Source: Methanolobus tindarius DSM 2278 (GTDB lineage: Archaea > Halobacteriota > Methanosarcinia > Methanosarcinales > Methanosarcinaceae). From it: a stretch of DNA of 64,000 nt. The notes under the pieces were generated by a model, which was not told the origin of the DNA, ran no database searches, and worked only from the letters and a program-made list of their open reading frames with translations. A program made the position numbers and the translations under genes. The stretch spans positions 1,958,879 to 2,022,878 of the forward strand of contig NZ_AZAJ01000001.1 of assembly GCF_000504205.1 (NCBI RefSeq), read 5' to 3'. Within the stretch, counting starts at the first letter, position 1. Every line of letters begins with the position of its first letter. Below, piece by piece: positions 9,038-38,768 of this stretch.

Positions 9038-9382
9038 TTAAAGATCTTTTTCCTTGTCAGAGTCTACAAGTTTGTCTATCTTTGCCTCAAGACTTGAAAT
9101 TATATCCTTAAGTTCCTTTACCTCATCCTTGGTTGCAACATCTGCCTTGTTTAGGGTTTCCTGAACCTTTGATGAGATCTTCTTCTCAATATCTTCCTTC
9201 TGCTTTTTCTGTTCATCCATTACTTCACGGACAAACTTTTTACCTTCTTCCTTTTTGATCTCCCCATTTTCGATAAGATCATCAGTAATGTCCTGAACTT
9301 TCTCTTCCGTCAGTGCCCATAAGCCAATTCCAAAAAGACCGACTTTCTTCATGACTTCTGTGATGTCTGTAACGTCTTTCAT
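9038..9382 (-). CDS. Phasin-like coiled-coil protein
   Basis: A 114-residue, highly charged protein. A short hydrophobic N-terminal helix (KKVGLFGIGLWALTEE) is followed by a long Lys/Glu coiled coil. The layout matches COG3937-type proteins (poly-hydroxyalkanoate granule-associated, PhaF/PhaI-like). Whether it coats granules in this archaeon is unknown; no polyhydroxyalkanoate genes are visible. GGAGG-type bases precede the ATG at 9382. It is first in a two-gene unit with the beta-rich protein downstream. Confidence 0.75.
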   Translation of the reverse strand: MKDVTDITEVMKKVGLFGIGLWALTEEKVQDITDDLIENGEIKKEEGKKFVREVMDEQKKQKEDIEKKISSKVQETLNKADVATKDEVKELKDIISSLEAKIDKLVDSDKEKDL

Positions 9383-29043: not shown

Positions 29044-30204
29044 TTACTTGCTTTCCCTGCGATGGATAGAATACATCTGGATCTTCTTCATCTTTGCCAG
29101 ATTGAGGGCATTCTTCATCTCCTTTTCCTCAAGCAGACGTGCATCAATGTAACCGTTGTCTGCTGCCTCGTTGAAGATTTCATAGCCAATGCTGGAACGT
29201 GCAAGTACCGTGGTCCATCCCTGAGGCGTGCCAACACCACCAAACGAGATATCTGCGTTCTCAGCAGCCATATCTGTACAGTATTTGCATGAACTGCTCC
29301 TGTACTGGTCAAACTCATCAAGTGGGAATACCTTGAGTTCATCAGGTGTCTGGAATTCGAACTTACCCTTGCGTATCTTCATAGACTCAATATCAGCAAG
29401 GTTCATATTCCTGTTTTCAATGAATTCCTTGATACCTTCATAATAGAATGTGTCCATGCAGAACAGACCCATTTTAAGGATATTAGCTCTCATGAAATGG
29501 TGAAGGAAACCCTGTGGACTTTTCTGCATTTTAGTGACCGCATCGATATTACAACTTGGTCCGACAAAAGCAATGCTTCTCATGCCATCCTTAACAGCAT
29601 CCATCAAAGGTTTAAGCGTCATACTGTGGCTGTAAATGCTACCTGAACCCTCAAGGATATCCTCGTATGTTTTCGCAATAACAGGAACTGGTTTCCAGGG
29701 TTCTTCTTCAGATTTTGTCGTTACAATGGCACAGTCTATGAGCCCTGCATCAAGTGCATATCCAAGCATGGCGGTCACAACACCTCCATCCTGACCATTC
29801 AGTCCGGGGAGGGTAGACTTTGCACAGTAAGCATTACGAAGCTTGCCGACAAGTCCGGCCTCAGTTGTGATTGTCCTTGGACATTGATTATAACAGACAC
29901 CACATGCTGTACACTTGTCTACAAGAGTAGGCTGTTCATTCTTGATAACAATAGAATCGCAGGAAGCAGAACATGCCCCGCAAAGGGTGCATATCCCAGG
30001 CTTGATGATTTCTTTCCTGAGTTTTCCAAAAGAGATCTTTTCCTTTTCAGCAATGGACCTCTTCAGACGTACTACTCTTTTCTCAACAATGTCAAATTTA
30101 TCTTTACATTCAGACGAGCAGAAACGATATTTTTTCCCTGCATAATCAGCAGAATATGAGGTGTCTTCCTGCACTTTGTTTTTACATATAGGATCGATAG
30201 GCAT
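29044..30204 (-). CDS. YHS-ferredoxin-FrhB-type F420 oxidoreductase subunit
   Basis: A 386-residue flavo-iron-sulfur protein. Residues 1-45 form a YHS/TRASH-like metal domain (DPICKNKVQEDTSYSADYAGKKYRFCSSEC in segments). Residues about 70-115 carry two 4Fe-4S clusters (CTLCGACSASC and CTACGVCYNQCP). The remainder is the FrhB/FpoF type coenzyme F420 dehydrogenase domain (LPGLNGQDGGVVTAMLGYAL, FVGPSCNIDAV, CKYCTDMAAENADISFGGVG). It should take hydride from F420H2 onto FAD and pass electrons to Fe-S. It is divergent from a Dsr-like sulfite reductase, and together they correspond to the two halves of Fsr. GGGAG precedes the ATG. Confidence 0.85.
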   Translation of the reverse strand: MPIDPICKNKVQEDTSYSADYAGKKYRFCSSECKDKFDIVEKRVVRLKRSIAEKEKISFGKLRKEIIKPGICTLCGACSASCDSIVIKNEQPTLVDKCTACGVCYNQCPRTITTEAGLVGKLRNAYCAKSTLPGLNGQDGGVVTAMLGYALDAGLIDCAIVTTKSEEEPWKPVPVIAKTYEDILEGSGSIYSHSMTLKPLMDAVKDGMRSIAFVGPSCNIDAVTKMQKSPQGFLHHFMRANILKMGLFCMDTFYYEGIKEFIENRNMNLADIESMKIRKGKFEFQTPDELKVFPLDEFDQYRSSSCKYCTDMAAENADISFGGVGTPQGWTTVLARSSIGYEIFNEAADNGYIDARLLEEKEMKNALNLAKMKKIQMYSIHRRESK

Positions 30205-30460
30205 CTTAATCTCCCAGGATCGCGGATGTCCTTAGTATAAATCTGTATATTGTTCTTATTGTATAAAACTAAATTTGAATTTAATAATCGTGATGGTTCT
30301 CTGCATAATGATTATTAGTTATAATTATTATTTATGAGAAAATTTAGGGCACAATGTTTTTACATAATATGCTATATCAAGTAAACTTGTCTTCAAATAA
30401 CTGGATATGAATTTCATCACATTATCCAGTAAAATACCAACTGGAAAAGAAGTGACCCAA
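30205..30460. promoter_or_regulatory. Divergent promoter of the FrhB-like and sulfite reductase-like genes
   Basis: About 250 AT-rich bases between divergent starts. AATAATC (about 30280-30286) and GATTATT (about 30308-30314) form an inverted pair, which could serve shared control. If the upstream ATG at 30407 were used, the region would be shorter. Confidence 0.35.
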
Positions 30461-31315
30461 ATGGTAAAAACAAATTCTAACAAAGACCTGCTTAAAGAGA
30501 AAGGCTTTCTTTCACAGAGGCAGGATGATTTCTTTTCAATGCGCCTGCATGCTGCAGGTGGAAATCTTACATCCGACTACCTCAGGGCAGTTGCGGATGC
30601 AGCAGACCGTTATGGTAAAGGCTATGTTCATGTGACATCACGTCAGGGAATTGAAATTCCGTTTGTCCACCTGGACAACACCGAAGCCGCCAGAAATGAT
30701 ATGGATTCTAATGATATTGGTCCCGGAGCTTCAGGAAAAAAAATTCGTGCTGTAGTCGCATGTCAGGGGGACAGGGTCTGTAAACGCGGACTCATCGATT
30801 GTCAGGGAATCTGTGAAGAAATAGATGAGCTCTATTTTGCAGAACCTGTGCCATACAAATTCAAGATAGCAGTAACAGGCTGTCCTGCATCATGCCTTAA
30901 AGTTCAGGAGAACGACTTTGGTATCATGGGATTCTGCGAGCCGGTTTTTGTGGAAGAGAATTGTGTAATGTGCAGGGCATGTGAGAAAGCATGTGGCTCC
31001 TCTGCCATTACGATAGAAAATGGAAGTCTCTATCAGGATATGGATAAATGCGTCTCCTGTGGTTCATGCATCCGGGTATGCAGAAAAGATTCTATGCAGA
31101 ATCAGCAGCAGGGATATACAATATTTGTAGGTGGAAAAGTGGGTAAAAAACCACGCATGGGTGATATGTTGCTCAGGACAACAGATAGGTCTGTAATTTT
31201 TGATGTGCTCGAAAAATCCGTGAATTACTATCGTGAGACTGCTCTGGAAGGAGAAAGACTCGGTGATGTTATTGACCGTGTAGGTCTGGATGAGTTCAGA
31301 GAAACAATAAAGTGA
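30461..31315 (+). CDS. Small sulfite reductase-like protein (Dsr-LP) with two 4Fe-4S ferredoxin motifs
   Basis: A 284-residue siroheme/Fe-S protein. The N-terminal half-domain has VHVTSRQGIEIPF. The siroheme-cluster cysteines are in VVACQGDRVCKRG and TGCPASCLKVQENDFG. A ferredoxin module follows with CVMCRACEKACGS and CVSCGSCIRVCRK. This is the compact architecture called dissimilatory sulfite reductase-like in methanogens and equals the C-terminal half of F420-dependent sulfite reductase. The substrate could be sulfite or another sulfur or nitrogen oxide. I take ATG 30461 (AAGTGA upstream); ATG 30407 is in frame but has no ribosome site. Confidence 0.85.
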   Translation: MVKTNSNKDLLKEKGFLSQRQDDFFSMRLHAAGGNLTSDYLRAVADAADRYGKGYVHVTSRQGIEIPFVHLDNTEAARNDMDSNDIGPGASGKKIRAVVACQGDRVCKRGLIDCQGICEEIDELYFAEPVPYKFKIAVTGCPASCLKVQENDFGIMGFCEPVFVEENCVMCRACEKACGSSAITIENGSLYQDMDKCVSCGSCIRVCRKDSMQNQQQGYTIFVGGKVGKKPRMGDMLLRTTDRSVIFDVLEKSVNYYRETALEGERLGDVIDRVGLDEFRETIK

Positions 31316-35999: not shown

Positions 36000-38768
36000 T
36001 CATTTAATCCTGCTTCTCTTCATAAGCAGTGAATTAGTCGTAACCGATACTGAACTCATAGCCATAAAAGCTGCTGCCAGTTCAGGAGTTATCACGATCT
36101 TTGCGATGAATGGATAAAGCAGCCCTGCTGCAAGGGGTATTCCAATACTGTTGTAACCTAAAGCCCAGAACAGATTCTGTTTTATTTTGTTCATTGTCAG
36201 ACGACTAAGTCTAATGGATGCCAGCACATCCCTGAGATCGTTCTTTATCAGAACTATCTGTGCAGATTCCATTGCAATATCAGTTCCTGCTCCCATGGCA
36301 ATACCAATGTCCGACTGCGTTAGTGCAGGTGCATCATTGATACCATCGCCAACCATTGCAACAATTCTGCCTTCATCCTGAAGCTTTTTAATTTCTGAAG
36401 CCTTATCTCCGGGAAGAACCTCTGAGAGCACTCTCTTAATTCCGAGTTGTGATGCAATGGCGTCGGCAGTTCTGCGGTTGTCACCGGTTATCATTACAAC
36501 TTCAATGTTCATCTTCTGAAGTTTCTCGACAGCTTCCTTAGAGTTCTCTTTGAGCGTATCCGCAACGGCGACAAGTCCGATTACGTTGTCTTCTGTTGCA
36601 ACTATCATGGCAGTCTTGCCTTCAGATTCAAGCTTTTCCATATTTTCATTGATGGAAGACACATCAATTCCATTGTCTTCCATGAGCTTGCGGGTTCCTA
36701 GCAAAATCCTGCTTCCTTGAATTGTAGCTTCAACTCCATGTCCTGCAATTGAATTGAAATTTTCAATGCTTTTCAGGGAAAGTTGCTTATCTTCGGCAGC
36801 TTTTACAATTGCTTCTCCCAGTGGATGCTCAGAGCCTTTCTCGGCACTTGCTGCGATAGAAAGAACTTCATTTTCATCATGTTCTGAAGTAATTATGATA
36901 TCCGTGAGTTCCGGCTTGCCTTTTGTGAGTGTGCCGGTTTTATCAAACACAATAGTGTCTATCTTCAGTGTCGTTTCAAGGGCTTCTCCGCCTTTGATAA
37001 GAATACCATTCTCGGCACCTTTTCCAGTACCAACCATGATAGCGGCAGGAGTTGCAAGTCCAACGGCACATGGGCATGAGATTACAAGCACTGTGATTGA
37101 AATTAGCAGTGAGAACAGGAAAGGACTTTCGATTCCTGAATTAATAGCAGCATTAAATGCTTCATATCCAATGAAATACCAGAAGAAGAATGCTGCAAGT
37201 GCGATAATATGAACAACAAGAATAAAGTGGCCAGCGACAACATCGGCAATACGCTGTATGGGTGCCTTTGAGTTCTGGGCATTTTCCACAAGTTCGATGA
37301 TTCTTGCAAGGGCAGTATCTGCACCCACATTTGTTGCCCTGAATTTAAGAGCTCCTGACTTGTTGATAGTAGAACCGATAACCATGTCCTCAACATTTTT
37401 CTCAACAGGTATACTCTCTCCTGTTATCATTGATTCATCAATTGCAGAAGACCCTTCTATAACAACACCATCAACGGGAATCTTCTCTCCTGGCCTGACA
37501 AAAACAATGTCATCAACTTGAACATCCTCAACGGGAATTTCCTTTTCCTCACCTGCAACTATGATGCGTGCTGTCTTTGCCTGCAGGCCAATGAGCTTCT
37601 TGATGGATTCAGATGTCCTTCCTTTTGCCCTTGCTTCAAGGTATCTGCCAAGGGTTATGAAAGTGATGAGCATCACAGCTGTGTCATAGTACACATGCTC
37701 GTAACCAGGACCAAGGTTCAGGTAGGTTGCTGCAATGCTGATAACATAAGCAGCACCGGTTCCGGTGGCAATGAGCAGGTTCATGTCAGTGACACCGTGT
37801 TTCAGGCCTTTGTAGGTACCGACAAAGAACTGTCTTCCCGGGAAGACCATTACAATAGTTGCAAGCAGGAACAGCAGGTTCTTGTCTGAAAAGAAATCAG
37901 GTACAAATCCAAAGTATGCCGGGAACATGTTGCTCATGTTTCCAAGCATTATTGGAATAAGAATAACAATTGATATCAGCAGATTATTTCTCTGGCTACG
38001 TATCTCTTTTTCTCTTTCTTTTCGTTCCCTGTCTTCAGCTTCATGCCGGTCAGCCGGCAAAGAGGCGGTGTATCCTATGCCTTCAATGGCTTTCCTCATC
38101 TCATCAACTGAAACAAGTGATGAATTGTACTCAATCTGTGCCCTTCCTGTTGTAACGTTAACATTTACGGAACTGATACCATTGAGTCTTTTAAGCACTT
38201 TCTCTACATTCTGAGAACATGCAGCGCATTTCATGCCCCCTACTTCAAGTACAACTTTATCCTTTACGACATGGTAACCAATTCCATCTATGGCTTGTTC
38301 CATATCTTCAAGCGTGACAAGTACAGGGTCATAGCTTACGGATGCTCTTTCCATTGGTAGATTTACTGAAGCCGATGCCACACCATCAAGCTTTTTCAAT
38401 GTCTTTTCTACATTCTGTGAACAGGCAGAACATTGCATTCCTGATACTTTGAATGCAATTTCCTCAACAGATCCGGGTTCGTGTTTGCTTTCTTCCGCCT
38501 CCTCATCCTCTATTATGATAGGACACGCAGCTTCATCATCAGAATCCTGGACTGTGCAGGTATCTTCCCCAACTTCATATCCTGCGGCTGTAATTGCTTG
38601 TTTTATTTCATCCAGGCCAATTGTTTCCGGATTGAAATCAACAGAAGCATTCTCATCTTCAAGGCTGACTTCTACTGAGTTCACACCTTCAAGTGACATT
38701 ATTGCATCACTGACACGTTTGTGACAATGCATGCACATCATGCCATAGACTTTGATAGTAGCTTTCAT
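36000..38768 (-). CDS. copA: Copper-exporting P1B-type ATPase with three heavy-metal domains
   Basis: A 922-residue Cu(I) pump. Three N-terminal HMA domains have CxxC pairs at 12/15 (CMHC), 113/116 (CSAC) and 181/184 (CAAC). Eight TM helices follow, with the CPC ion site in [12 protein letters not shown], phosphorylation motif [17 protein letters not shown] (HP motif) and [11 protein letters not shown] 35-residue acidic linker separates HMA1 from HMA2, and HMA1 differs most. It follows a copZ-like gene by 40 bases on the same strand. Confidence 0.96.

Follow-up and report, generated by a model that had tools for sequence, protein, structure and literature searches.

A divergent gene pair for a YHS-domain F420 dehydrogenase-like flavoprotein and a Group IIId sulfite reductase-like protein in Methanolobus tindarius

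The window analysed here is a 64,000-nucleotide stretch (positions 1,958,879 to 2,022,878 of contig NZ_AZAJ01000001.1, forward strand) of the 3.15 Mb, one-contig genome of Methanolobus tindarius DSM 2278, and the coordinates of the features listed below are those of the window. It contains two intact, divergently transcribed genes with 202 bp between their ORFs, and ORF calling places no intervening gene. The leftwards-transcribed gene (YHS-FrhB) encodes a putative F420H2 dehydrogenase, and the rightwards-transcribed gene encodes a compact protein related to siroheme sulfite reductases. A first-pass annotation had described FrhB-type and siroheme reductase genes lying back to back, and both the ORF calls and Pfam agree with it. 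The features of the region are as follows.

29044..30204, minus strand: YHS-ferredoxin-FrhB flavoprotein gene (YHS-FrhB), putative F420H2 dehydrogenase; 386 aa, ATG start
29125..29580, minus strand: FrhB_FdhB_C domain (FAD/F420 side), with cluster Cys 218, 249, 306 and 309
29605..29829, minus strand: FrhB_FdhB_N domain (Pfam), residues 126-200
29875..30009, minus strand: 2x[4Fe-4S] ferredoxin domain of YHS-FrhB, residues 66-110, both motifs complete (CX2CX2CX3C)
30091..30198, minus strand: YHS/TRASH-like domain, residues 3-38, with Cys7, Cys29 and Cys33
30284..30315, no strand assigned: inverted repeat ATAATCRTGA-N12-TMATGATTAT, 32 bp, between the two genes
30461..31315, plus strand: compact siroheme sulfite-reductase-like gene, Group IIId Dsr-LP; open frame from 30407, ORF of 302 aa
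30953..31087, plus strand: inserted 2x[4Fe-4S] ferredoxin domain of the reductase, residues 183-227 of the 302-aa ORF

The conserved stretch GAAGTGACCCAAATGG in the reductase points to a start at ATG 30461 rather than at 30407, and the former is therefore the likely start codon. Between congeneric genomes the dN/dS ratios are 0.025-0.059 for YHS-FrhB and 0.037-0.124 for the reductase, and under such strong purifying selection neither can be a pseudogene or an ORF arising by chance. Named relatives of the reductase are in Methanolobus, with 95% identity in M. bombayensis and 93% in M. vulcani.

Domain composition of the two proteins

YHS-FrhB has Pfam matches to YHS (PF04945; 41.1 bits against a gathering threshold of 30.3), Fer4_10 (26.1 against 25.5), FrhB_FdhB_N (83.9 against 22) and FrhB_FdhB_C (148.8 against 23.3). 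The extra N-terminal YHS domain of the first-pass annotation thus stands; its metal-type cysteines are all present and it is a plausible metal binder. It is kept in most YHS-FrhB orthologues and is degenerate or lost in a few, and a literature search turned up no relevant account of a YHS domain together with F420 in methanogens. The best solved relatives of the protein are the F420-coupled enzymes 8riu, Fsr (the N-terminal half of the crystallised protein, 7np8 and 7npa) and Frh. The best-scoring of these, the F420-reducing CODH subunit of Ethanoperedens (8riu_B), differs in lacking a YHS domain in the matched region and in having CODH as its partner. A structure model of YHS-FrhB also matches the folds of 8riu_B, Fsr and Frh; its pLDDT of 64 is too weak to support claims about interfaces.

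YHS-FrhB scores below the curated cut-offs for FpoF (NF040616; 120.9 versus 475 bits) and FrhB (TIGR03289; 193.2 versus 331.5 bits). FpoF/FqoF and FGltS(I)-alpha are likewise free-standing 2x[4Fe-4S]-FrhB proteins, and we rejected identity with FpoF, FGltS(I)-alpha or an Hdr-linked FrhB because each of those types is represented by a gene of its own elsewhere in the genome, among them an FpoF/FqoF-type copy (L135) and an FGltS(I)-alpha-type copy (L134). It is L134, a different gene, that adjoins glutamate synthase subunits; YHS-FrhB does not.

The reductase has Pfam matches to NIR_SIR_ferr (69.1 bits against a cut-off of 24), NIR_SIR (122.3 against 27) and two Fer4 repeats (37.6 against 21.1). 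The ferredoxin clusters are predicted at Cys 186-196 and 215-225, as two CX2CX2CX3C motifs, and the siroheme-[4Fe-4S] motif comprises Cys 119, 125, 159 and 163 (CX5C...CX3C). The Fsr substrate residues R355, R388, R423, K460 and K462 align to R46, R79, R114, K151 and K153 of the reductase (Fsr numbering and roles from PMC10229431). The protein matches the C-terminal half of the crystallised Fsr (7np8, 7npa), and its structure model (pLDDT 85) has Fsr 7npa as the best fold match with a TM-score of 0.89; it scores below the curated cut-off for AsrC (TIGR02912; 171 versus 324.1 bits).

The reductase is free-standing, has the siroheme motif, the peripheral and additional [4Fe-4S] clusters and all four sulfite-binding Arg/Lys residues, and clusters with Dsr-LPs, specifically with the Methanosarcina members. 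These are the defining features of Group IIId Dsr-LPs (Susanti and Mukhopadhyay 2012, PMC3448663), and on this basis the protein is a member of that group, with the residues and motifs expected of a functional sulfite reductase of the assimilatory type. Unlike other Group IIId Dsr-LPs it has YHS-FrhB as a neighbour and is an apparent stand-in for a paralogue encoded in cys operons.

Relation to Fsr, conservation and loss of the pair

Every functional domain of Fsr is present across the two proteins: a 2x[4Fe-4S] domain with FrhB, and a siroheme reductase with an inserted 2x[4Fe-4S] domain and the same active-site residues. The first-pass annotation listed these parts in the order found in Fsr, correctly as to both. 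Fsr is a single fused polypeptide, whereas here there are two divergent ORFs, an N-terminal YHS domain, a complete second ferredoxin motif and a shorter FrhB loop. The extended loop 171-189 of Fsr, which seats both of its ferredoxin domains (PMC10229431), is absent from YHS-FrhB, the corresponding segment being about 10 residues shorter, and the cluster-1 spacing is CX30C versus CX40C in 12 of 12 Fsr proteins of the family.

Both proteins also lie outside the Fsr clades. In a tree of 71 rows the reductase branches with the free-standing Dsr-LPs of Methanosarcina (100/92), in a clade whose sister is SIR2, the cys-operon paralogue (99/93), and a 100/99 branch separates the C-terminal half of Fsr from the reductase and SIR2. 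YHS-FrhB forms a 100/100 clade of its own apart from the N-terminal half of Fsr, in a tree that excludes L136 (a very long branch) and duplicate rows; a joint clade of the two is disfavoured, the rejection not being firm (p-AU 0.051). With the reductase among Dsr-LPs and YHS-FrhB in its own clade, neither protein appears to derive from an Fsr half, and on the two phylogenies we reject origin of the pair by fission of a fused Fsr. We note that Methanosarcinaceae-type reductases also occur on two contigs of bacterial-labelled MAGs (L193 and L195; Melioribacteraceae and Cloacimonadota), both 26,356 bp long and with the same match, and these contigs are probably mis-binned.

YHS-FrhB and the reductase are adjacent in 14 of the 27 Methanolobus genomes. 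YHS-FrhB itself is found across Methanosarcinales, in three families of the order, mostly with no adjoining reductase. Its older neighbourhood contains gatCAB, a radical SAM gene, CopA, a CopZ-like protein, thioredoxin and a further gene that we take to be methanogenesis marker 14, and no reductase. A copper-type P-ATPase gene with three HMA-like repeats at 36000-38768 of the window belongs to this ancestral neighbourhood.

Loss has occurred in both directions. Eight genomes of the genus have YHS-FrhB and no reductase, and in four of these, reductase remnants lie in the same gap beside an intact YHS-FrhB (best E values from 3.6e-18 to 1e-5; 0.03 for the best match to shuffled sequence); where the reductase has decayed YHS-FrhB is still under selection, within the dN/dS range given above. 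Genome G054 retains the reductase and is missing YHS-FrhB, and G065 has both genes, far apart. Among 74 genomes of the family with a completeness of at least 95%, 49 have both genes, 10 have only the reductase, eight have only YHS-FrhB and seven have neither; the 59 reductase-bearing genomes thus include 10 in which YHS-FrhB is missing or disrupted. The association is weak (p=0.034, by a statistic that ignores relatedness), and as each gene also occurs on its own, strict co-occurrence cannot serve to prove a complex. The check on co-occurrence put forward in the first-pass annotation is thus answered positively by the adjacent pairs within the genus and poorly family-wide. These patterns suggest that the pairing is conserved in only some relatives and is not obligatory.

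The intergenic inverted repeat follows the two genes separately. The half-site nearer YHS-FrhB persists in most relatives and stays with YHS-FrhB; the half-site nearer the reductase is present in 11 of the 14 adjacent pairs versus one of eight genomes without the reductase. The repeat may correspond to two similar promoter elements or to a shared operator. A search for its regulon gave a single genome match at three or fewer mismatches with this spacer sequence, leaving no regulon to interpret.

Sulfate assimilation and the proposed roles

Both cysD and cysH are present in 13 of the 27 Methanolobus genomes, and a Group III reductase is encoded by all 13 of these and by five of the 14 genomes without cysD/cysH (Fisher p=0.0006; p=0.005 when restricted to genomes of 95% completeness or more). 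The association comes from a single genus, whose genomes are related to each other. Eight of the 13 have SIR2, which sits in PiT-SIR2-cysH-cysD-cysN operons, and five, including M. tindarius, have only the reductase described here. M. tindarius was previously given as a CysDN carrier (PMC6286981), in agreement with its genome, where cysHDN is located at 86.6-89.9 kb; SIR2 is absent, and this reductase is therefore the sole Group III candidate for the sulfite step. In G051 a SIR2 remnant (46 aa, 74%) adjoins cysH (L257, near 9212-9349) and the other Group III reductase is intact. For both genomes the simplest reading would be that sulfite reduction has passed to this reductase. The distribution suggests that the reductase half serves sulfate assimilation. 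Given the link to cysD/cysH its substrate is probably sulfite, and a different substrate, entertained in the first-pass annotation, becomes less likely. Assimilation cannot be its sole role, since five genomes without cysD/cysH also keep it.

We favour, with a probability of roughly 45%, a reading in which these are separately evolving redox proteins that have a divergent promoter region in common and a facultative relation to each other, the reductase being assimilatory. The reductase would most likely turn sulfite into sulfide at its siroheme-[4Fe-4S] centre, with electrons entering through the inserted ferredoxin domain; in M. tindarius it would most likely take sulfite from CysHDN sulfate assimilation, and it may additionally detoxify sulfite. 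YHS-FrhB would most likely oxidise F420H2 on FAD, the electrons then leaving by way of its three [4Fe-4S] clusters for at least two different acceptors. The adjoining reductase of Methanolobus is probably among them, reached directly or via a ferredoxin and not in an obligate complex, and F420H2 is, mainly from the adjacency, a plausible electron source for the reductase by way of YHS-FrhB.

The same parts could instead form a true two-subunit F420H2-dependent sulfite reductase, a dedicated Fsr-like complex assembled independently of Fsr, which we consider rather unlikely. The two proteins are an exact complement of the Fsr parts with all clusters and substrate residues present, they adjoin in 14 genomes with a common inverted repeat, and the putative aFsr of haloarchaea is a proposed separate-subunit precedent (PMC3448663), similarly with F420-dehydrogenase-like and sulfite reductase genes, although its reductase is aSir-type and that of Methanolobus is of the Dsr-LP type. 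Such a complex is hard to reconcile with the two-way loss, with the usual absence of a reductase beside YHS-FrhB, with divergent genes rather than one operon, and with the shortened loop that in Fsr seats the ferredoxin domains. For the split complex of Fsr halves proposed in the first-pass annotation, the parts, their order and the adjacency are borne out, and the proposal itself is weakened by the phylogeny, the frequent solitary YHS-FrhB and the losses. A fuller version is more doubtful still, in which an independently formed two-subunit enzyme, its F420 oxidase gated or assembled by a metal-binding YHS domain, would have replaced the cys-operon reductase in assimilation.

At the other extreme the genes could be unrelated neighbours, an ordinary ferredoxin feeding the reductase and YHS-FrhB serving another, perhaps metal- or redox-stress, acceptor. 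The nearby copper ATPase, CopZ-like protein and thioredoxin, which the ancestral neighbourhood has without the reductase, and the possible metal binding of the YHS domain point this way, and SIR2 appears to work with no adjoining FrhB; however, the copper genes and YHS-FrhB are not neighbours in the ANME-like families or in Methanosarcina, and the half-site pattern links the stretch between the two genes with the reductase, so that we regard this as improbable. Reduction of nitrite or another oxyanion is very improbable. In ANME-2c, FsrII uses F420H2 to reduce nitrite but not sulfite (PMC9295563), and Fsr accepts nitrite (PMC10229431), but the substrate residues altered in FsrII are all kept here as in Fsr-I, and both the reductase and SIR2 track cysD/cysH.

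Homologues of both genes are present, unlinked, in genome G074, which we take to be M. acetivorans. Native M. acetivorans extracts had no methyl-viologen sulfite reductase activity (PMC9295563), which counts against the activity we propose; homologues of this type may be silent in the extracts assayed.

Group III Dsr-LPs have been termed biochemically uncharacterised (PMC6286981), and what they do has been a question ever since the group received its name; with the cysD/cysH association and the apparent paralogue swap in a culturable genus, it becomes directly testable. YHS-FrhB is an order-wide family of putative F420 oxidases, and if coupling to the reductase is true, Fsr-like chemistry would have been put together at least twice from these parts.

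Other YHS-FrhB genes show further variation. Several Methanolobus genomes have a second paralogue, with the YHS domain (L080, L081, L122) or without it (L074, L082, L083), and YHS-FrhB lies within ~8 kb of a SIR2 operon in L122 and in L140, which is from another family. An in-frame TAG is present at residue 341 in five orthologues of genus g7 (L063, L126, L130, L068 and L151), with the same TAG flag in G019, G025 and G026. It aligns to the conserved Tyr341 of YHS-FrhB in the window, conserved protein continues beyond it to a TGA stop, and nearby codons vary between genomes; the TAG is likely read through as pyrrolysine.
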